Shown: positions 12,490 to 46,818 of the stretch, in pieces | Layout: each line of letters begins with the position of its first letter | How positions within the stretch are numbered: position 1 is the stretch's first letter | Assembly (NCBI GenBank): GCA_013177895.1 | Contig: JABLXV010000020.1 | Coordinates: 1 to 47,273 of the forward strand | Length of the DNA: 47,273 nt | Source: Brevinematales bacterium | GTDB lineage: Bacteria > Spirochaetota > Brevinematia > Brevinematales > GWF1-51-8 | Reading direction: 5' to 3' | Position numbers and translations under genes: made by a program | Notes under the pieces: generated by a model | The model's input: only the letters and a program-made list of their open reading frames with translations | Database searches by the model: none | Told to the model about the DNA's origin: nothing

Positions 12490-13844
12490 AACGCACTCTA
12501 TTAGTAGCGGACGACGAATACGGTATCCGCGAATTCCTGTACGAACTATTTAAAGAAACCTACGACGTCAAGCTCGCGAATGACGGGAAAGAAGCGATCG
12601 CCCTGTTCGATAAGGAGGTATTCGACGTCGCATTGATCGACCTTCGTATGCCCGAGGTATCCGGCGTGGAAGTACTCGAATACATCAAGGAAAAAAATAT
12701 CGACACTATACCCATCGTTATCACCGCGGACAGGGATATCGACCATGCGGTCGAGGCGATGAAGATGGGCGCCTACGACTATATCACGAAACCGATGGAC
12801 TATAAAAAACTCACGATCACCATTCATAACGCTATCGAGAAAAAGGGTCTCGAGGAACGTATCGATTCGCTGGAACGGGACGTCAAAGGCCCGCTTTTTT
12901 TCTCCAATATCATCAGCCAGAGTAAAGAGATGCGCAGTGTTTTCAATAATATCGAGAACGTGCTGAATAACGACGCGACCGTACTGATCTACGGCGAAAG
13001 CGGCACAGGTAAAGAACTGATCGCGCGCGCGATCCACTTTAACGGCAACCGCGCCCAGAAACCGTTCATCCCGGTGGATTGCGCGTCTATCCCGGAATCG
13101 CTGATAGAAACCGAATTGTTCGGCTATGAGAAGGGCTCGTTCACCGGCGCGGGTAAAACCACCCGCGGGAAATTCGAGCTCGCGGACGAGGGCACGCTAT
13201 TCCTCGACGAGATTTCGAATATCTCCATGGACGCGCAGGCGAAGCTGCTCCGCGTCATACAGGAACGGGAATTCCTGCGGATCGGCGGGGAAAAGCGTAT
13301 ATCGGTGAATGTGCGCATCATCAGCGCGTCCAATAAGGACCTGAAAAAAATGATCCATGACGGGACATTCCGCGAGGACCTTTATTACCGCCTCAACGTT
13401 ATCCCGATACACCTTCCGCCCGTGCGCGAGCGCAAGGAAGACATCCCTCTTCTCATTCAGCATTTTCTCAAGATATTTAACGAACGCTACCAGAAGAAGG
13501 CTCTGTTCGACAGCGGGACATTGAAGATACTGATGGACTACCGTTGGCCGGGTAATGTGCGCGAGCTCGAAAACGTCATCAACCGGATTATCCTGACCTC
13601 CGATAACGACGTGATTCTCCCGGAGATGCTGCCGGTGGAAATCCGCCGCGCGGGGCTTTCTATTATGTCCGGCACGGAACTCCTCGAAGCGGACATCACG
13701 CTGGATAATCTGGAAAAGATTCATATCGAGAAACTGCTCAAGAAGCACGAATACAATATCTCCACTGTCGCGGAAATCCTCGGGGTTACCCGGAAGACGC
13801 TCTACGCGAAAATGGAGAAATTCGGGCTGCAGAAGAAGTCTTAA
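12486..13844 (+). CDS. NtrC-family sigma-54 activating response regulator
   Basis: 452 residues in the classical three-domain order. The receiver domain (1-115) has the phospho-acceptor Asp52 and Lys102. The AAA+ domain (about 135-375) has Walker A GESGTGKE at 170-177, the sigma-54 contact loop GSFTGA at 217-222 (Ser instead of the usual Ala), Walker B GTLFLDE, and the arginine finger region REDLYYRLNV. The C-terminal Fis-type helix-turn-helix ends LGVTRKTLYAKMEKFGL. It would drive sigma-54 promoters when phosphorylated by the kinase encoded just upstream. One sigma-54 promoter is seen in the window, at 873-888 before the GAF gene; it is a candidate target. The stop overlaps the convergent HD-GYP gene by 4 bases. 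Confidence 0.95.
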   Translation: MKRTLLVADDEYGIREFLYELFKETYDVKLANDGKEAIALFDKEVFDVALIDLRMPEVSGVEVLEYIKEKNIDTIPIVITADRDIDHAVEAMKMGAYDYITKPMDYKKLTITIHNAIEKKGLEERIDSLERDVKGPLFFSNIISQSKEMRSVFNNIENVLNNDATVLIYGESGTGKELIARAIHFNGNRAQKPFIPVDCASIPESLIETELFGYEKGSFTGAGKTTRGKFELADEGTLFLDEISNISMDAQAKLLRVIQEREFLRIGGEKRISVNVRIISASNKDLKKMIHDGTFREDLYYRLNVIPIHLPPVRERKEDIPLLIQHFLKIFNERYQKKALFDSGTLKILMDYRWPGNVRELENVINRIILTSDNDVILPEMLPVEIRRAGLSIMSGTELLEADITLDNLEKIHIEKLLKKHEYNISTVAEILGVTRKTLYAKMEKFGLQKKS

Positions 13845-15205
13845 CCCTCGATCTTGAGGTTGGGGATAATTTTTTCGAGCTTCGCGAGAATAGTCCGGTC
13901 GATTTCATGGTTGTTCGCCATATCCTGCATAATCTGTAAACATTTATCCAATTCAAGCCCCTCGCGGTACGGACGCTTGCTGGAAAGCGCGTCATAGATG
14001 TCCGCGACGGAGATAATCTTCGCGATCTCCGGGATTTTCTCGTCCGTCAGACGGTCGGGGTATCCCTCCCCGTTCAGCTTCTCGTGATGAGCTTTCACAT
14101 AGGTCGCTATCTCGAACAGGGGCTTATAGGTCGAAACGATATCGAAGCCCAGTTCGGAGTGCCGTTTGATCTGGCGGAACTCGTCCTCGGTCAGTCTCCC
14201 CGGCTTATTCAGGACTAATTTACTGACCCCGAGTTTCCCGATATCGTGGAGTATCCCGGTAATTTCGATCTTATCGATCACGGACGTGCGGAGTCCCATC
14301 GCTTTAGCGATCTCCATAGATATCTGCATGACCCTGCGGGAGTGCCCGGCGGTGTACTGGTCGTCCCGTTCCAGTATCTCCACGATGGTGGAAAGGATGT
14401 CCTCGTACTCCTTCTCGATATTGTCCCGGATTTGTTTTAATTGCCCCTCTTTCTCCGATCGTTCCCTAAGGGTAATCCCGTAACGCATCGTCAGCATCAC
14501 GGTAATAATGAAGCTGAACATCGTAAAGCCGATGGAGGACGCTGAGTTATCGAGCATCGATAGAATAGAGTTGTCGCTGAGTTTGAGGATAGCGATACCG
14601 TTAAACACCAGAAGGACGAGGCTTCCTATAATGAAACCTATCTCGTTCGTAGCCAGTTTACCCTGCAGCCGGGCATTGCCGACGGCATATATCCCGGATT
14701 TTACTAAATTGATTAAAAACACCAGCCCGTGAACGGCAAGCACGCCGACGTAGAGAAATCCCGGGGTTCCCTGGGTAATACTGCCGAACTTTACCGGAAC
14801 CGGCAGGATAAACCACGGGGTAAACATTAACGGGATAGTCGCGCAAATCAGGCCGATTAAAATCCCGCGCAGGATATTACTCTCGTTCTTCACGTTAAAG
14901 ATGTGCCTCGGCAGGCGGATGAATGAAATCAACGCGACCGCGATACCGATATGCTGAACCCGGTGCATCCAGAGATTCAACTCGAATACGTTTGACATTA
15001 ATAAAACTGCCTGCGGCGTGACATAAAGTAACGCGCCCAGCGAGAATTCTATATAACTTTGGATTTCCTTTTTCTGGTAGATTCCCTGATACGAGGTTTT
15101 CCGGTTCTCGAACCAGACGTAGGTAAGGAAGCATGCATTTAAAAGATTTAACACGATACTCAGCACATTGATTAAAGTCGGAACAAGAGGCACCGTTTCG
15201 TTCAT
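13841..15205 (-). CDS. Membrane HD-GYP phosphodiesterase (first of a tandem pair)
   Basis: 454 residues. Residues 1-260 carry about seven to eight hydrophobic helices, then a short coiled linker (RSEKEGQLKQIRDNIEKEYED), then an HD-GYP domain with the HD pair at 320-321 (ILHDIGKLG), HHE at 373-375 and GYP at 381-383. HD-GYP proteins hydrolyse cyclic-di-GMP, and all expected metal ligands are present, although the usual DGxGYP reads NGEGYP. The start codon shares its A with the stop of the upstream HD-GYP gene (TAATG), so translation is coupled. The 3' end overlaps the convergent regulator gene by 4 bases, leaving no room for a terminator. Confidence 0.9.
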   Translation of the reverse strand: MNETVPLVPTLINVLSIVLNLLNACFLTYVWFENRKTSYQGIYQKKEIQSYIEFSLGALLYVTPQAVLLMSNVFELNLWMHRVQHIGIAVALISFIRLPRHIFNVKNESNILRGILIGLICATIPLMFTPWFILPVPVKFGSITQGTPGFLYVGVLAVHGLVFLINLVKSGIYAVGNARLQGKLATNEIGFIIGSLVLLVFNGIAILKLSDNSILSMLDNSASSIGFTMFSFIITVMLTMRYGITLRERSEKEGQLKQIRDNIEKEYEDILSTIVEILERDDQYTAGHSRRVMQISMEIAKAMGLRTSVIDKIEITGILHDIGKLGVSKLVLNKPGRLTEDEFRQIKRHSELGFDIVSTYKPLFEIATYVKAHHEKLNGEGYPDRLTDEKIPEIAKIISVADIYDALSSKRPYREGLELDKCLQIMQDMANNHEIDRTILAKLEKIIPNLKIEG

Positions 15206-40653: not shown

Positions 40654-41772
40654 TTATATTACAATTTCCCATACTTTTTCTATTATATAGTCCATAATCT
40701 CCGTTCCCCGCCGCGTCAGCCGGATATTCCTATCCCGCGATTCCACCCATTCCGACAACTCCCTCAAACCCGCATCCGGTATATCCGCCCCGGACAGCGC
40801 TTTCAGTTTATCCCTGTCCAGCCCTTCCGTCTTCCGCAGGCCGAGCATAATCAGTTCGCGCGCGATTGTGCTCTTATCGAGCGCTTCGCTCATGCCCCGG
40901 GGAAATTCTCCCCTGTCGAGCCGCGCGATATATTCGTCCAAATCCCGGGTATTGGTATATCGCCTCGGGATACCGTCCGCGCCCGGCAGGAAACCCGACG
41001 CTCCCAATCCCGCGCCGGCATAATATCCGTAGTCCCAGTAATTGGAATTATGGCGGCTTTCATATCCCCGCCACGCGTAGTTCGAGATTTCATAACGGCG
41101 GTATCCGCGCTGTTCGAGATATTCCGCCGCGCGCCAGTACTGTTCCATATACTCGTCGTCGGACAACGGGACATAAGCCCCATCAAGCGGTGTGCCCTCC
41201 TCGATAGTCAGGTGGTATGCCGAGATATGCTCCGGCTCCATCGAGGCGATTTCCGCGAGCGTCCCGTCCATATCGTCCCCGCGTATCGCGAGTATCATAT
41301 CGAGCGAAATATTCCGGAAACCCGCGCCCCGGAGTATCCGATACGCCGCGCGGTTCTGCTCAGGTGTGTTCCTGCGCCCGAGGAAACGCAGGGTGTCCGC
41401 GCCCATCGACTGGAATCCCATACTGACGCGGTTTATCCCGCGCGCGCGCCAGTATTCCGCCAATCCGGGGGTGATATCGTCGGGATTTGCTTCTATAGTA
41501 TATTCCGCGCCGGGCGCAGGTAATCCTTCCAGCAGGCGGAATATCCCGTCCATATCGTCAACGGATGGGTACGACGGGGTGCCGCCCCCGATATAGATCG
41601 TATCGAAAACGGGATAATCCGTGGTATAAAGGGAGATTTCTTTCTCAAGCGCGCGGAAATAACGGGAGACCCGTTCGCCGCCGTCCGGCGGAAAGGACAA
41701 AAAATCGCAGTAAACGCACTTCGACTTACAGAACGGGATATGGACGTAAAGGGCGCGGACGGGAAGCATCAT
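40654..41772 (-). CDS. hemW: HemW-type radical SAM protein (coproporphyrinogen III oxidase-like)
   Basis: 372 residues. The radical SAM cluster motif CxxxCxxC is Cys15, Cys19 and Cys22 (HIPFCKSKCVYCDF), followed by the GGGTPSYP SAM loop and TIEANPDD, MGFQS and SLDMILAI blocks of this family. HemW proteins are usually annotated as oxygen-independent coproporphyrinogen oxidases but, by published work on the family, act as haem chaperones. The expected C-terminal domain is present. The first ATG overlaps the stop of the voltage-sensor gene within ATGATG; the second Met is equally possible. Third gene of a coupled operon. Confidence 0.9.
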   Translation of the reverse strand: MMLPVRALYVHIPFCKSKCVYCDFLSFPPDGGERVSRYFRALEKEISLYTTDYPVFDTIYIGGGTPSYPSVDDMDGIFRLLEGLPAPGAEYTIEANPDDITPGLAEYWRARGINRVSMGFQSMGADTLRFLGRRNTPEQNRAAYRILRGAGFRNISLDMILAIRGDDMDGTLAEIASMEPEHISAYHLTIEEGTPLDGAYVPLSDDEYMEQYWRAAEYLEQRGYRRYEISNYAWRGYESRHNSNYWDYGYYAGAGLGASGFLPGADGIPRRYTNTRDLDEYIARLDRGEFPRGMSEALDKSTIARELIMLGLRKTEGLDRDKLKALSGADIPDAGLRELSEWVESRDRNIRLTRRGTEIMDYIIEKVWEIVI

Positions 41773-42662
41773 CCCAGAAGGTCGGAATAATCGTCCTGGG
41801 GCTGGCCGGGAGTCTGAGCGGCATGTTTCTTCTGCCGCATCGACTGAATCCTGACCTTCATCGGCAGCCAGAGCGTATTATACGCCTCGGCTAGCTCGAA
41901 AACTTCCTCGTTTTTATAGGGCTTCTTGGACTTTACCGTGAAGTTATAATCATCCTCGATCATCCCGCGCTTCATTACATAAATCGGATCGCTGACATTC
42001 TGCGCGAAATGACGCCCGTAGAGCAGGCTGATCAAAAGTACGTTCGCGATCGCTACAAATGTAAATGTGAGCGAGACTCTCGCCTCGATTATGGGGTTTT
42101 CGCCGAGGTCGACGAACCCGATCGACGTCAGGAACATGAACACCGCGACGCTGCAAGTTACCACGAGCGCGGACACGGAGGATACATGGTGCTGGCTCAT
42201 CTTGGACATCACGTTCTCGATCTTGCCGAATATTTTCAGGACGCGCAGGAGCCGCAGGATACGCGATACGCGGATCGCCTTGATAATTTTGAGGTTGCCG
42301 ACGAAGCGGTTGCCCTTGATCGCGATCACCCCGTTAAACGCATACTCGTAGAACGCGGGACCCGAAAGGAGCGCCAGAAGCGGCACCGACGCCAGCAGAT
42401 CGATCCAGCCGCGTTCGTAGAAAAAGTACATCACGAAACGTTTATGCGCAAGCGCGTAGATCGCCCGGCTGATGAATTCCAGCGTGAATACCGCGTCGAA
42501 CGCGAACCCGATGATGATCATCCAAAGGTCCCAATCCTTCGCCCAGTTATAGGTAGCGCTCCACGCCCCGATAACGGCGAAGTCGTCGGTAATAATCTGT
42601 ACGATAGATAAAAGAATAATGACGAGCAGGGTATTATCTATGATTTTTCCAAACGTTTTCAT
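41769..42662 (-). CDS. Voltage-sensor domain fused to a HAMP domain, no pore
   Basis: 297 residues. The N-terminal half is a four-helix voltage-sensor domain of the ion-channel type: S1 about 9-25; S2 about 45-66 with Glu62; S3 about 85-100 with Asp88 (WIDLLASVP); and S4 with seven basic residues exactly three apart (Lys125, Lys128, Arg131, Arg134, Arg137, Arg140, Lys143). Two more helices follow (about 161-182 and 196-215), joined by only about 13 residues, too short for a pore helix and filter; no GYG-like motif is present. Residues about 213-275 then read as a HAMP domain (GRHFAQNVSDPIYVMKRG, FELAEAYNTL). No output domain follows. Start and stop are coupled to both neighbours. Confidence 0.8.
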   Translation of the reverse strand: MKTFGKIIDNTLLVIILLSIVQIITDDFAVIGAWSATYNWAKDWDLWMIIIGFAFDAVFTLEFISRAIYALAHKRFVMYFFYERGWIDLLASVPLLALLSGPAFYEYAFNGVIAIKGNRFVGNLKIIKAIRVSRILRLLRVLKIFGKIENVMSKMSQHHVSSVSALVVTCSVAVFMFLTSIGFVDLGENPIIEARVSLTFTFVAIANVLLISLLYGRHFAQNVSDPIYVMKRGMIEDDYNFTVKSKKPYKNEEVFELAEAYNTLWLPMKVRIQSMRQKKHAAQTPGQPQDDYSDLLG

Positions 42663-43621
42663 CACAGATCCTCTTCAATGGTTATTTTATATAATTCGTC
42701 GACGGTGTTGAGATCGTAGGAATAGAACTTGTAGTTCACGCGCGCCACATTGAGCCAGCTCGCCTCGAAACTTTCAGCGCCCCTGTCCTTTTTCACCTTT
42801 TTCCACTGGAGAGCCATATTATAGACGATTTTCAGCATTTTCGACGTATAAGTCGTATTTTCCGCTTCCTCGGCAAAGTAATAGACCTTCAGGATAATAT
42901 CGAGGAAATACGGCGAGATATTCGGGAAACCGGTCATAATAATTTCCTTCAGCTTCGCGAGGAAATTTTTCCGCAGCGCGTCGTTGGACTCGGTTTCGGG
43001 ATAGGACACCGTCTTATTCGCCGGGCCGCCGTATCCGGGCATCACCATATTGATCGGCATCATAATATCGTAGATCGGCAGGATAAACATCGCGGTATAC
43101 AGGAAATCCACCGCTTCCTCGGGTTTGGCGAACCCGATCTTATCGAACTTACTCAACCCGTTACTGACATAACGGCGGTTATTATACACCGCGGTGATGA
43201 ACGGGAATATGACATTATTTTTCATAAAAGTCAGGATATTGCTGTAGTGCATGCGGGAGGTATATCTCGACGAGAGTTTCCCCGCGAAATCGATCAACTG
43301 CTGACGGAAAAGCTCGTTAGATATCATAAAATCCGTGTATTTCTGCTTCCACTCCATCTGGAGGGAATCGATCGTTATTTTAAGCTGTTCGCGGACTGAG
43401 TCGGTAATCGCCTCGCCCAGAACCTTCGCCAATTCGGACTTGATATCCGGCCACACCATATCGGGATAAAAATCCGGCGAGGAAAATGTGATGCTGAGTT
43501 TGCCCTCGTTCTGGTTGATAAACGCGAGTACGTGCTCTTCCTTCTCATGCGGCGCCAGGTTTTTTATCGCACCGCTGTTAATTAGTTGTTCTACAAAACT
43601 TCGTAGTTTTTCGGTATTCAT
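42662..43621 (-). CDS. Unknown 319-residue soluble protein, first gene of the voltage-sensor operon
   Basis: 319 residues, no signal peptide. Mostly helical by eye, with long amphipathic stretches (FRQQLIDFAGKLSSRYTSRM, FLYTAMFILPIYDIMMPINM) and an aromatic, charged C-terminus ending ITIEEDL. I recognise no family. Its stop overlaps the start of the voltage-sensor-HAMP gene as TGATG, so the two are made together and may interact, for instance as a soluble partner of the HAMP domain; that is inference from gene order only. Own promoter about 28 bases upstream. Confidence 0.7.
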   Translation of the reverse strand: MNTEKLRSFVEQLINSGAIKNLAPHEKEEHVLAFINQNEGKLSITFSSPDFYPDMVWPDIKSELAKVLGEAITDSVREQLKITIDSLQMEWKQKYTDFMISNELFRQQLIDFAGKLSSRYTSRMHYSNILTFMKNNVIFPFITAVYNNRRYVSNGLSKFDKIGFAKPEEAVDFLYTAMFILPIYDIMMPINMVMPGYGGPANKTVSYPETESNDALRKNFLAKLKEIIMTGFPNISPYFLDIILKVYYFAEEAENTTYTSKMLKIVYNMALQWKKVKKDRGAESFEASWLNVARVNYKFYSYDLNTVDELYKITIEEDL

Positions 43622-43912: not shown

Positions 43913-44416
43913 ATGTTCTATACCGAAATTCTGGAATCGTTCTATAAAAACAAAGTCCGCTATTTACTTGTCGGCGGTCTTGCCCTGAATCTTCACGGCG
44001 TCCCGCGAACCACATTCGATATGGATATTATTATCCCATCGGATAAAGCTAGTAACGAGAGGCTGATTAACGCGATCAAGGAATTAAACTATGTCCCGAG
44101 GCTTCCGGTGGACCCGTTAAAAATAGCCGACCCGGAAACTTTAAACGACTGGATCGAAAATAAGAATATGAAGGCCTTCAGTTTCTATCATAAAACTGAT
44201 AACGCGCGGGTGATCGATATCGTGCTGGTTCACCCTCTCGGTTTCGATGAGGCTGAAGCGAGGAAAAAAATATTTACCTTCCGGGGTATCGAAATCCCCG
44301 TCCTCTCCATCGACGATTTAATCGAGATGAAAATATTCAGCGGACGGCCGAAAGACCTGAGCGACGCGGAGATGCTGAAAGAAGCGAAAAAAATCTCGGG
44401 GGACGGCAATGAATAA
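43913..44416 (+). CDS. Nucleotidyltransferase-fold protein (DUF6036/MNT-like)
   Basis: 167 residues. The N-terminus holds the minimal nucleotidyltransferase pattern: LVGGLALNLHGVPRTTFDMD, in which GG-x(n)-HG and the D-x-D pair (Asp-Met-Asp) correspond to the catalytic core; a later acid is offered by VIDIVLVHPLG, and SIDDLIEMKIFSGRPKDLSD is the usual C-terminal helix. Members modify or regulate partners by nucleotide transfer and often occur as one half of toxin-antitoxin-like pairs. Here it overlaps by 8 bases with a tiny gene. The target is unknown. Confidence 0.85.
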   Translation: MFYTEILESFYKNKVRYLLVGGLALNLHGVPRTTFDMDIIIPSDKASNERLINAIKELNYVPRLPVDPLKIADPETLNDWIENKNMKAFSFYHKTDNARVIDIVLVHPLGFDEAEARKKIFTFRGIEIPVLSIDDLIEMKIFSGRPKDLSDAEMLKEAKKISGDGNE

Positions 44417-45918: not shown

Positions 45919-46818
45919 CTATTTAACATCCGGAGCTTTTTCATCACTTCGAGATACTGTTCCTTGGATGTTTTTGTACTCTTCATCATACCAAGCCGGT
46001 TTAGTATAAAAAGTACTATCTCCATTAATAAAAGGACGAATAAGAGATTTTGTATTTTCATTCTTTGAAACAGTAGAAATATAATCCTCACAAAAACTAT
46101 TTAAAATTGCATAATCCACAGTTTTTATTAATACTTCTTCTTTGTCATTTTCCCGTTTAGCTGTTTTAATAAATATTAATGGATATTGAAAACCGCCTAA
46201 TACACCCTTTAAAAGCGTTTTCCCACCATATACAAATTCAATTCTGTCACAAGTGTTTTTTGTTAATAATAAAGCTAAATCTACTGATACAGGACATAGA
46301 TAAGGAGTTGATAATTTTGATATTCTAAAACCAATATCAATTGAAGGGCCAATAAAATCAACAGGTTCATTATCTTCATTATCCTTAGAATATGGAATGT
46401 ATTTAAAGTTTAATACTGGAAACCCAGCTATCCATGCTGATGCTTTTATATTAAGTAGCGGGTCATTAATACCTCTTCTATACTGCTCAACAGCATTTTT
46501 AAAAGCCTCGATAAAAAAAACAGAATGGAACGAATTTTTTAGCAGTACTGTGAATACTATTTCGTCTCCTAATCTTTTCCAAATAATTGGAGTATCCGGC
46601 GGAGATTCAGTTATTCTAGTATCTTTATAGTCTTGTTGCTTTTCTTTTAAATATATCATATTTGAAGTAAAAAGATTTGGGAAATCCTTATAAAAATCAT
46701 TAATGAAGGGAGCCCATGCAGAGACAAATATATTTTTAGCTTTATATTCCGTAGAGTTTACAATATCAACGCTGAGGAACAAACGGAGTTCACAGTCCAA
46801 GTACTTTTGTTCTGACAT
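45919..46818 (-). CDS. Class III nucleotidyl-cyclase-like protein
   Basis: 299 residues, soluble. The order of blocks recalls a class III cyclase homology domain. LFLSVDIVNSTEYK has the first metal Asp (Asp18), like F-x-D-I-x-x-S-T. WKRLGDEIVFTVL has the second (Asp85), like GDxxxAxF. VDFIGPSIDIGFRISKLS matches GxxVNxAARLxxxA with Asp161 where the transition-state Asn would be, and Arg165 kept. The Asn-to-Asp change and a longer gap between the two Asp residues make ordinary adenylate cyclase activity doubtful. The start lies within the last 29 bases of the metallopeptidase gene upstream. AT-rich, so probably acquired. An uncharacterised two-gene module is likely. Confidence 0.6.
   Translation of the reverse strand: MSEQKYLDCELRLFLSVDIVNSTEYKAKNIFVSAWAPFINDFYKDFPNLFTSNMIYLKEKQQDYKDTRITESPPDTPIIWKRLGDEIVFTVLLKNSFHSVFFIEAFKNAVEQYRRGINDPLLNIKASAWIAGFPVLNFKYIPYSKDNEDNEPVDFIGPSIDIGFRISKLSTPYLCPVSVDLALLLTKNTCDRIEFVYGGKTLLKGVLGGFQYPLIFIKTAKRENDKEEVLIKTVDYAILNSFCEDYISTVSKNENTKSLIRPFINGDSTFYTKPAWYDEEYKNIQGTVSRSDEKAPDVK

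Follow-up and report, generated by a model that had tools for sequence, protein, structure and literature searches.

The window, that is, the whole stretch of 47,273 nucleotides analysed here, carries a gene for a 297-residue protein in which a voltage sensor without a pore is joined to a HAMP domain. This observation, first made in a preliminary description of the DNA, was confirmed, and the accompanying interpretation, in which membrane potential is converted into a signal for the product of a partner gene rather than into an ion current, was supported by family comparison. We consider it likely that the voltage-sensor domain (VSD)-HAMP protein is a membrane-potential receptor which signals through its HAMP domain to the partner, and it is probable that these spirochaetes sense the voltage of their own membrane as a signal.

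The VSD-HAMP protein and its gene

The open reading frame begins with an ATG at position 42662 and ends with a stop codon at 41769-41771 of the minus strand, with an alternative GTG start possible 3 bases upstream (42665). Its extent agreed with the preliminary description, in which the strand was missing. The features of the locus are as follows.

40654..41772 (-): hemW-like radical SAM gene, a local neighbour only (NCBIfam TIGR00539; ATGA overlap with the end of the VSD-HAMP gene)
41769..42662 (-): voltage-sensor/HAMP protein, 297 residues (open reading frame and translation)
42570..42659 (-): S1, model helix, residues 2-31; the acids at its outer end, D26 and D27, are kept as D or E (AlphaFold model; conservation)
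42447..42542 (-): S2, residues 41-72, with D56, F59 and E62 of the charge-transfer centre (AlphaFold model; invariant columns)
42339..42410 (-): S3, residues 85-108, with D88 (AlphaFold model; invariant column)
42225..42290 (-): S4, residues 125-146, with K125, K128, R131, R134, R137, R140 and K143 (sequence and conservation; the model is poor here)
42120..42203 (-): S5, residues 154-181, corresponding to TM1 of a receptor hairpin (AlphaFold model; hydropathy)
42096..42119 (-): short S5-S6 link, residues 182-189, the site at which relatives carry an extracytoplasmic domain of 79-116 residues (model; family comparison)
42021..42095 (-): S6, residues 190-214, corresponding to TM2 and continuous with the first HAMP helix in the model (model helix 190-235)
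41835..42017 (-): HAMP domain, residues about 216-276, with SDP at P226, a connector and an EE..LA..YN motif (hhalign with controls)
41772..41813 (-): C-terminal acidic tail QDDYSDLL, residues 284-297, a possible docking site for the partner (sequence; relatives)
42662..43621 (-): partner gene, 319 residues, product predicted to be soluble and all-helical, without a known family or fold (family, PDB and fold searches; model; adjacency)

The partner gene lies directly upstream of the VSD-HAMP gene and the two meet in a TGATG overlap. Because the genes overlap at both junctions (TGATG and ATGA), the partner, VSD-HAMP and hemW-like genes are probably expressed as one transcript; among the loci read, the hemW-like gene adjoined the VSD-HAMP gene only in the window's genus. 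Copies of the VSD-HAMP protein within the genus were 80-94% identical across the full length, and a search of plasmid and phage records gave no match. On the divergent strand, a DUF6036/AbiEii-like nucleotidyltransferase gene adjoins the pair (window 43913-44416, +). The window also encodes a 299-residue protein without a family match (45919-46818, -), of which one motif (FLSVDIVNSTEYK) resembles class III nucleotide cyclases, and a 454-residue HD-GYP-like protein (13841-15205, -; HD match at 13862-14407).

The Pfam Ion_trans model matched residues 9-177 only (profile positions 5-143 of 241; E 3.6e-7), corresponding to S1-S4 and part of S5, with a score of 30.1 bits, above the Pfam gathering cut-off of 25, and 67 of the 68 relatives searched likewise gave a match at E < 1. 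As the preliminary description had claimed, S4 contains seven basic residues at an exact three-residue spacing; when the protein was shuffled 200,000 times, 4 of the shuffles reached such a run, and all seven were kept in 100 of the 122 family members examined. The partner acids that it had placed in S2 and S3 were also found, since D56, E62 and D88, together with the aromatic F59, were invariant or nearly so in the family alignment. The protein thus combines an S2 aromatic residue and acid, an S3 aspartate and at least four S4 basics at three-residue spacing, by which a voltage sensor was defined here, and the charge-transfer residues and S4 basics formed the most conserved part of the family. 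Judged from its residues, S1-S4 is a voltage sensor with an intact charge-transfer centre, and the retention of its charges across relatives of 30-40% identity is as expected if charge movement is under selection. The AlphaFold monomer model (mean pLDDT 81.7) contained helices for S1, S2, S3, S5 and S6; S4 and the S3-S4 linker were poorly resolved (pLDDT < 50 at residues 113-127). Whether the protein itself or the family profile served as the query, sequence searches of the PDB gave just weak matches to the VSDs of Kv and HCN channels (E 0.04 and worse), and a Foldseek search of the PDB with the model gave nothing better than E 0.8 and no convincing VSD match.

In the model, S5 and S6 are connected by 8 residues, which leaves no space for a pore loop. 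A re-entrant pore loop or filter between the two helices was absent from this protein, no filter motif was present in any relative examined, and Ion_trans_2 was not among the families listed for 68 members. The preliminary description had therefore been correct on the missing filter motif and had made the link slightly too long (about 13 residues). A true cyclic-nucleotide-gated channel encoded beside one relative (L042) matched both Ion_trans (positions 2-236 of 241) and Ion_trans_2, so these models would have detected a pore.

Nearly all other members contain 79-116 residues between S5 and S6, which are extracytoplasmic, lack filter motifs and have the conserved core LLiVK..G.TlYSRY...FGPgDY.Y...FFDlR. 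The resulting order, S5-domain-S6-HAMP, is the TM1-sensor-TM2-HAMP order of known receptors. Because this domain separates them in nearly all relatives, S5 and S6 resemble TM1 and TM2 of an ordinary HAMP receptor, and the protein looks like a HAMP-receptor chassis preceded by a fused voltage sensor. For the same reason, a simple channel that lost its pore was rejected: the absence of a pore stood, whereas the picture of a lone oddity, a channel minus its pore, gave way to membership of a spirochaete family with an extracytoplasmic domain between S5 and S6.

The extracytoplasmic domain was absent from the window's genus and, separately, from two genomes of another family (L186, L187). In a tree that included only L186 of the latter two, this corresponded to two losses, with the L186 branch being long and unsure. 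On this phylogenetic reading, the window's genus is a case of secondary loss. Its VSD charges are intact; those of L186 and L187 are largely gone. Since the genus kept the voltage sensor and dropped the extracytoplasmic domain, voltage would be the sole recognisable input there.

The preliminary description had placed a HAMP domain after the sixth helix and named an HMM search as the test. With the plain Pfam HMM (PF00672), no HAMP domain was found in the VSD-HAMP protein at E < 1, the gathering score was not reached, and weak matches were obtained in 4 of 68 relatives (best E 0.017), so by the named test the claim would have been rejected. The domain was recovered only when a profile of the C-terminal part, built from 68 relatives, was aligned, profile against profile, to HAMP sequences from this genome and from related ones. 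In hhalign, residues about 216-276 aligned to a complete HAMP domain with a probability of 94, an E-value of 1.5e-7 and a score of 42.9; scores of the controls were at most 14.3 for 30 column-shuffled profiles, 16.7 for the reversed profile, 12.0 for a VSD slice and 12.1 for the partner. The marks of HAMP were also present, namely the first-helix proline (P226 in SDP) and DE..LA..fN ahead of the second helix, and one long model helix (190-235) runs from S6 into the cytoplasmic domain. These alignments indicate that the C-terminal region is clearly homologous to HAMP. Only 21 residues follow it and they match no family, in agreement with the earlier claim that an output domain is missing; neither a kinase- or chemoreceptor-type output domain (Pfam, NCBIfam) nor a PTEN-like phosphatase was found. 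The tails of relatives often end in LSxDDhxxLh. An association between the C-terminal DD-hydrophobic tail and the presence of the partner (Fisher p 3e-5) was dropped, because it did not survive correction for phylogeny (independent pairs, median p 0.25).

Distribution of the family and its partner gene

A scan of the genomes of 84,980 species gave 107 confirmed relatives; because it used a single peptide pattern, distant relatives elsewhere may have been missed. The record titles of the best 80 of the 107, which were read, were almost all of spirochaetes. Only L080 departed from this, a record under the label Candidatus Hydrogenedentota; it has both genes and falls inside the spirochaete tree, suggesting a mis-binned contig or a transfer. 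In a profile search, the family was present in roughly a third of 296 genomes of the phylum, and within the window's class it was found only in the window's own genus (four genomes). The nearest named records were Brevinematales and GWF1_51_8 metagenome-assembled genomes. Within this family, which extends across Spirochaetota, the gene in the window represents the shortest form.

The 319-residue partner gene of the preliminary description proved to be dedicated and part of a phylum-wide pair. Wherever both open reading frames were called (58 loci), it lay directly upstream of the VSD-HAMP gene and on its strand, mostly within 15 bases, so that the gene ends overlap or nearly touch, and homologues were present in 103 of the 296 genomes. 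The partner matched no Pfam or NCBIfam family and no PDB entry by sequence, and Foldseek with its model (pLDDT 91), which predicts an all-helical, soluble protein, returned nothing better than E 0.8. In mirror-tree comparisons of the VSD-HAMP protein and its partner against bystander genes, the partial correlations were 0.28-0.49. The conserved pairing across the phylum strengthens the suggestion that the partner is the receiver of the HAMP signal.

Members without the partner comprised the f8 subfamily and a Leptospiraceae group. One well-supported subfamily (L017-L019, L023, L135-L137) lacks both the partner and the acidic tail, and a polysaccharide deacetylase gene follows in one of its genomes. 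At three loci (L042, L071, L090), a partner-less member is directly followed by a gene for a cyclic-nucleotide-gated channel, so that two different voltage-sensor proteins are encoded side by side. Conversely, a Leptospiraceae-like genome has a partner homologue without a VSD gene directly behind fliP and fliR (L183:2624-3535, +).

Diverged VSD-like genes were uncovered in Borrelia-like and Brachyspira-like genomes by reading the DNA beside partner homologues. The Borrelia-like VSD (L175:4722-6625, -; L176-L178) has lost the S2 glutamate and its S4 is reduced to about four basics; the pair adjoins cheA2-cheW3-cheX-cheY3 and is transcribed towards that cluster. The Borrelia counterparts of the pair would be BB0674 and BB0675, and a search of the open-access literature for these locus numbers gave no match. 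Brachyspira-like genomes (L163, L164, L179, L180) have kept the pair with an S4-like helix devoid of gating charges and a partner without its N-terminal part, and two f23 genomes have kept it although S4 lacks most or all charges. These cases imply that the HAMP/partner unit does not need voltage sensing in order to work.

In another spirochaete family, a single chain (L171:1586-3316, -) contains a voltage sensor (Ion_trans E 1.4e-17), a transmembrane hairpin with an extracytoplasmic part, a HAMP-like region (sub-threshold) and an HD domain of the HD-GYP type (HD_5/HD E 7e-25). This chain shows that, on at least one occasion, a VSD-HAMP unit became coupled to a signalling enzyme of the cytoplasm, and the protein is possibly a voltage-controlled c-di-GMP phosphodiesterase. 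In a search for more VSD-HAMP-HD fusions, the matches listed, other than the query, spanned essentially the HD part.

Proposed signalling route and its alternatives

The following route is hypothesised. A change in membrane potential would move S4 of the voltage sensor. S4 is joined to S5, and S5 and S6 would act as a hairpin of two helices comparable to TM1/TM2 in HAMP receptors, with no pore between them. Their motion, probably within a dimer that the HAMP four-helix bundle holds together, would be passed to HAMP, and HAMP with the acidic tail would then control the soluble helical partner by changing its state or location. In most spirochaetes, the extracytoplasmic domain between S5 and S6 would add a second input, and the window's genus, having dropped it, would sense voltage alone. 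We infer the voltage-driven movement, the dimer, the direction of the signal and the binding of the partner from the arrangement and conservation of these parts, and the protein presumably passes no ionic current. Points that weigh against this route are the pairs kept with a charge-depleted S4, the members without a partner, the lack of a Foldseek match in the PDB for either model, the poor resolution of S4 in the monomer model and the failure of the Pfam HMM to detect HAMP in this protein.

The extracytoplasmic domain of most relatives could also belong to an ordinary ligand-binding receptor of the HAMP type with its ligand outside the cytoplasm, whose four extra helices are structural or otherwise unrelated to voltage and of which the protein in the window's genus is a degenerate remnant; pairs with a charge-less S4 that persist in Brachyspira-like and f23 genomes would fit such a receptor. 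The window's genus, however, lacks the extracytoplasmic domain yet has all VSD charges intact, which is the reverse of what would be predicted, and the conservation of the seven basics in 100 of 122 members also speaks against it. We regard this explanation as unlikely.

Another explanation accepts a voltage-sensing signalling protein and assigns the partner to assembly or stability (as a chaperone or scaffold), with HAMP acting on some other, unlinked protein. Members without a partner, and the distant partner homologue that a Leptospiraceae-like genome carries behind fliP and fliR with no VSD gene, would be accommodated in this way. Such a role is rather improbable given the near-constant coupling of two genes whose ends overlap or nearly touch, one of which encodes a HAMP protein without any output domain. 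Finally, membership of the Ion_trans family and the ability of a VSD to conduct by itself, as in Hv1, would allow a proton pathway through the VSD or a small S5/S6 channel in an oligomer, but this is very improbable since the Hv1 S4 signature RxWRxxR is absent (Trp occurs in the S4 region of just 1 of 122 members), S5 and S6 enclose neither a pore loop nor a filter motif, and S6 continues into HAMP.

Relation to known systems and a possible link to motility

The membrane-potential receptor proposed here is alike in principle to the voltage-sensing phosphatases (Ci-VSP/TPTE), where the output under the control of an S1-S4 voltage sensor is something other than a channel. These are eukaryotic and have a lipid phosphatase directly after S4, whereas in the spirochaete protein S4 leads to a transmembrane hairpin, HAMP and a separate partner. 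In passages of a review of voltage sensors (PMC13095418), Hv1, VSP, TMEM266 and SLC9C1 are given as VSDs outside the classical channels, all of them eukaryotic, and those passages name no bacterial non-channel VSD. Hv1, TMEM266 and SLC9C1 share with the spirochaete protein a VSD outside classical voltage-gated cation channels (PMC13095418); they differ in being eukaryotic and in lacking HAMP, Hv1 itself being a proton channel and SLC9C1 an exchanger. HAMP receptors such as chemoreceptors and NarQ-type kinases have the same order of TM1, extracytoplasmic part, TM2 and HAMP, with HAMP identified here by profile comparison, but in the spirochaete protein HAMP is followed by neither a kinase nor a chemoreceptor or cyclase domain, and a four-helix VSD stands ahead of TM1. 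Its VSD is homologous to S1-S4 of voltage-gated ion channels (Kv, HCN/CNG, BacNav; PF00520), from which it differs in having no pore loop or filter, unlike the CNG-type channel in a related locus, which matches pore models. No report of a VSD and HAMP in one protein was found in the open-access literature. The two halves are known, and their junction and the partner appear to be new.

A role of the pair in motility or chemotaxis is a lead only. It comes from the cheA2 neighbourhood in Borrelia-like genomes, the lone partner homologue behind fliP/fliR and old reports on Spirochaeta aurantia, in which an involvement of membrane potential in chemotaxis was reported in 1981 and 1983 (according to the titles cited in PMC4841586). 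The gene order of the cheA2 cluster is established and its genes are required for chemotaxis of B. burgdorferi (PMC10703414). In addition, coordination between the motors of the two cell ends is too fast for diffusion of CheY-P, and the coordinating signal has been called unresolved (PMC7225975). When the pair was compared with flagella for co-occurrence, FliM was found in 269 of the 296 genomes of the phylum, and no VSD-HAMP/partner pair was detectable in motile Treponema-like genomes (f22). Since these are motile without it, a general role of the pair in motility is disfavoured, and it cannot be the general solution to coordination of motors at two ends.

We tentatively suggest a spirochaete-wide class of voltage receptors, in which a non-channel VSD acts through HAMP on a dedicated new protein and which might serve motility or chemotaxis as a fast electrical connection. 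With a non-channel voltage sensor on a HAMP receptor, bacteria would be shown to possess receptors dedicated to membrane potential. The family occurs across the entire phylum, and Borrelia-like and Brachyspira-like genomes contain diverged copies. The pair is a concrete candidate for how membrane potential enters Spirochaeta chemotaxis and, though not as a general solution, a candidate for the fast coordination of motors at both cell ends.
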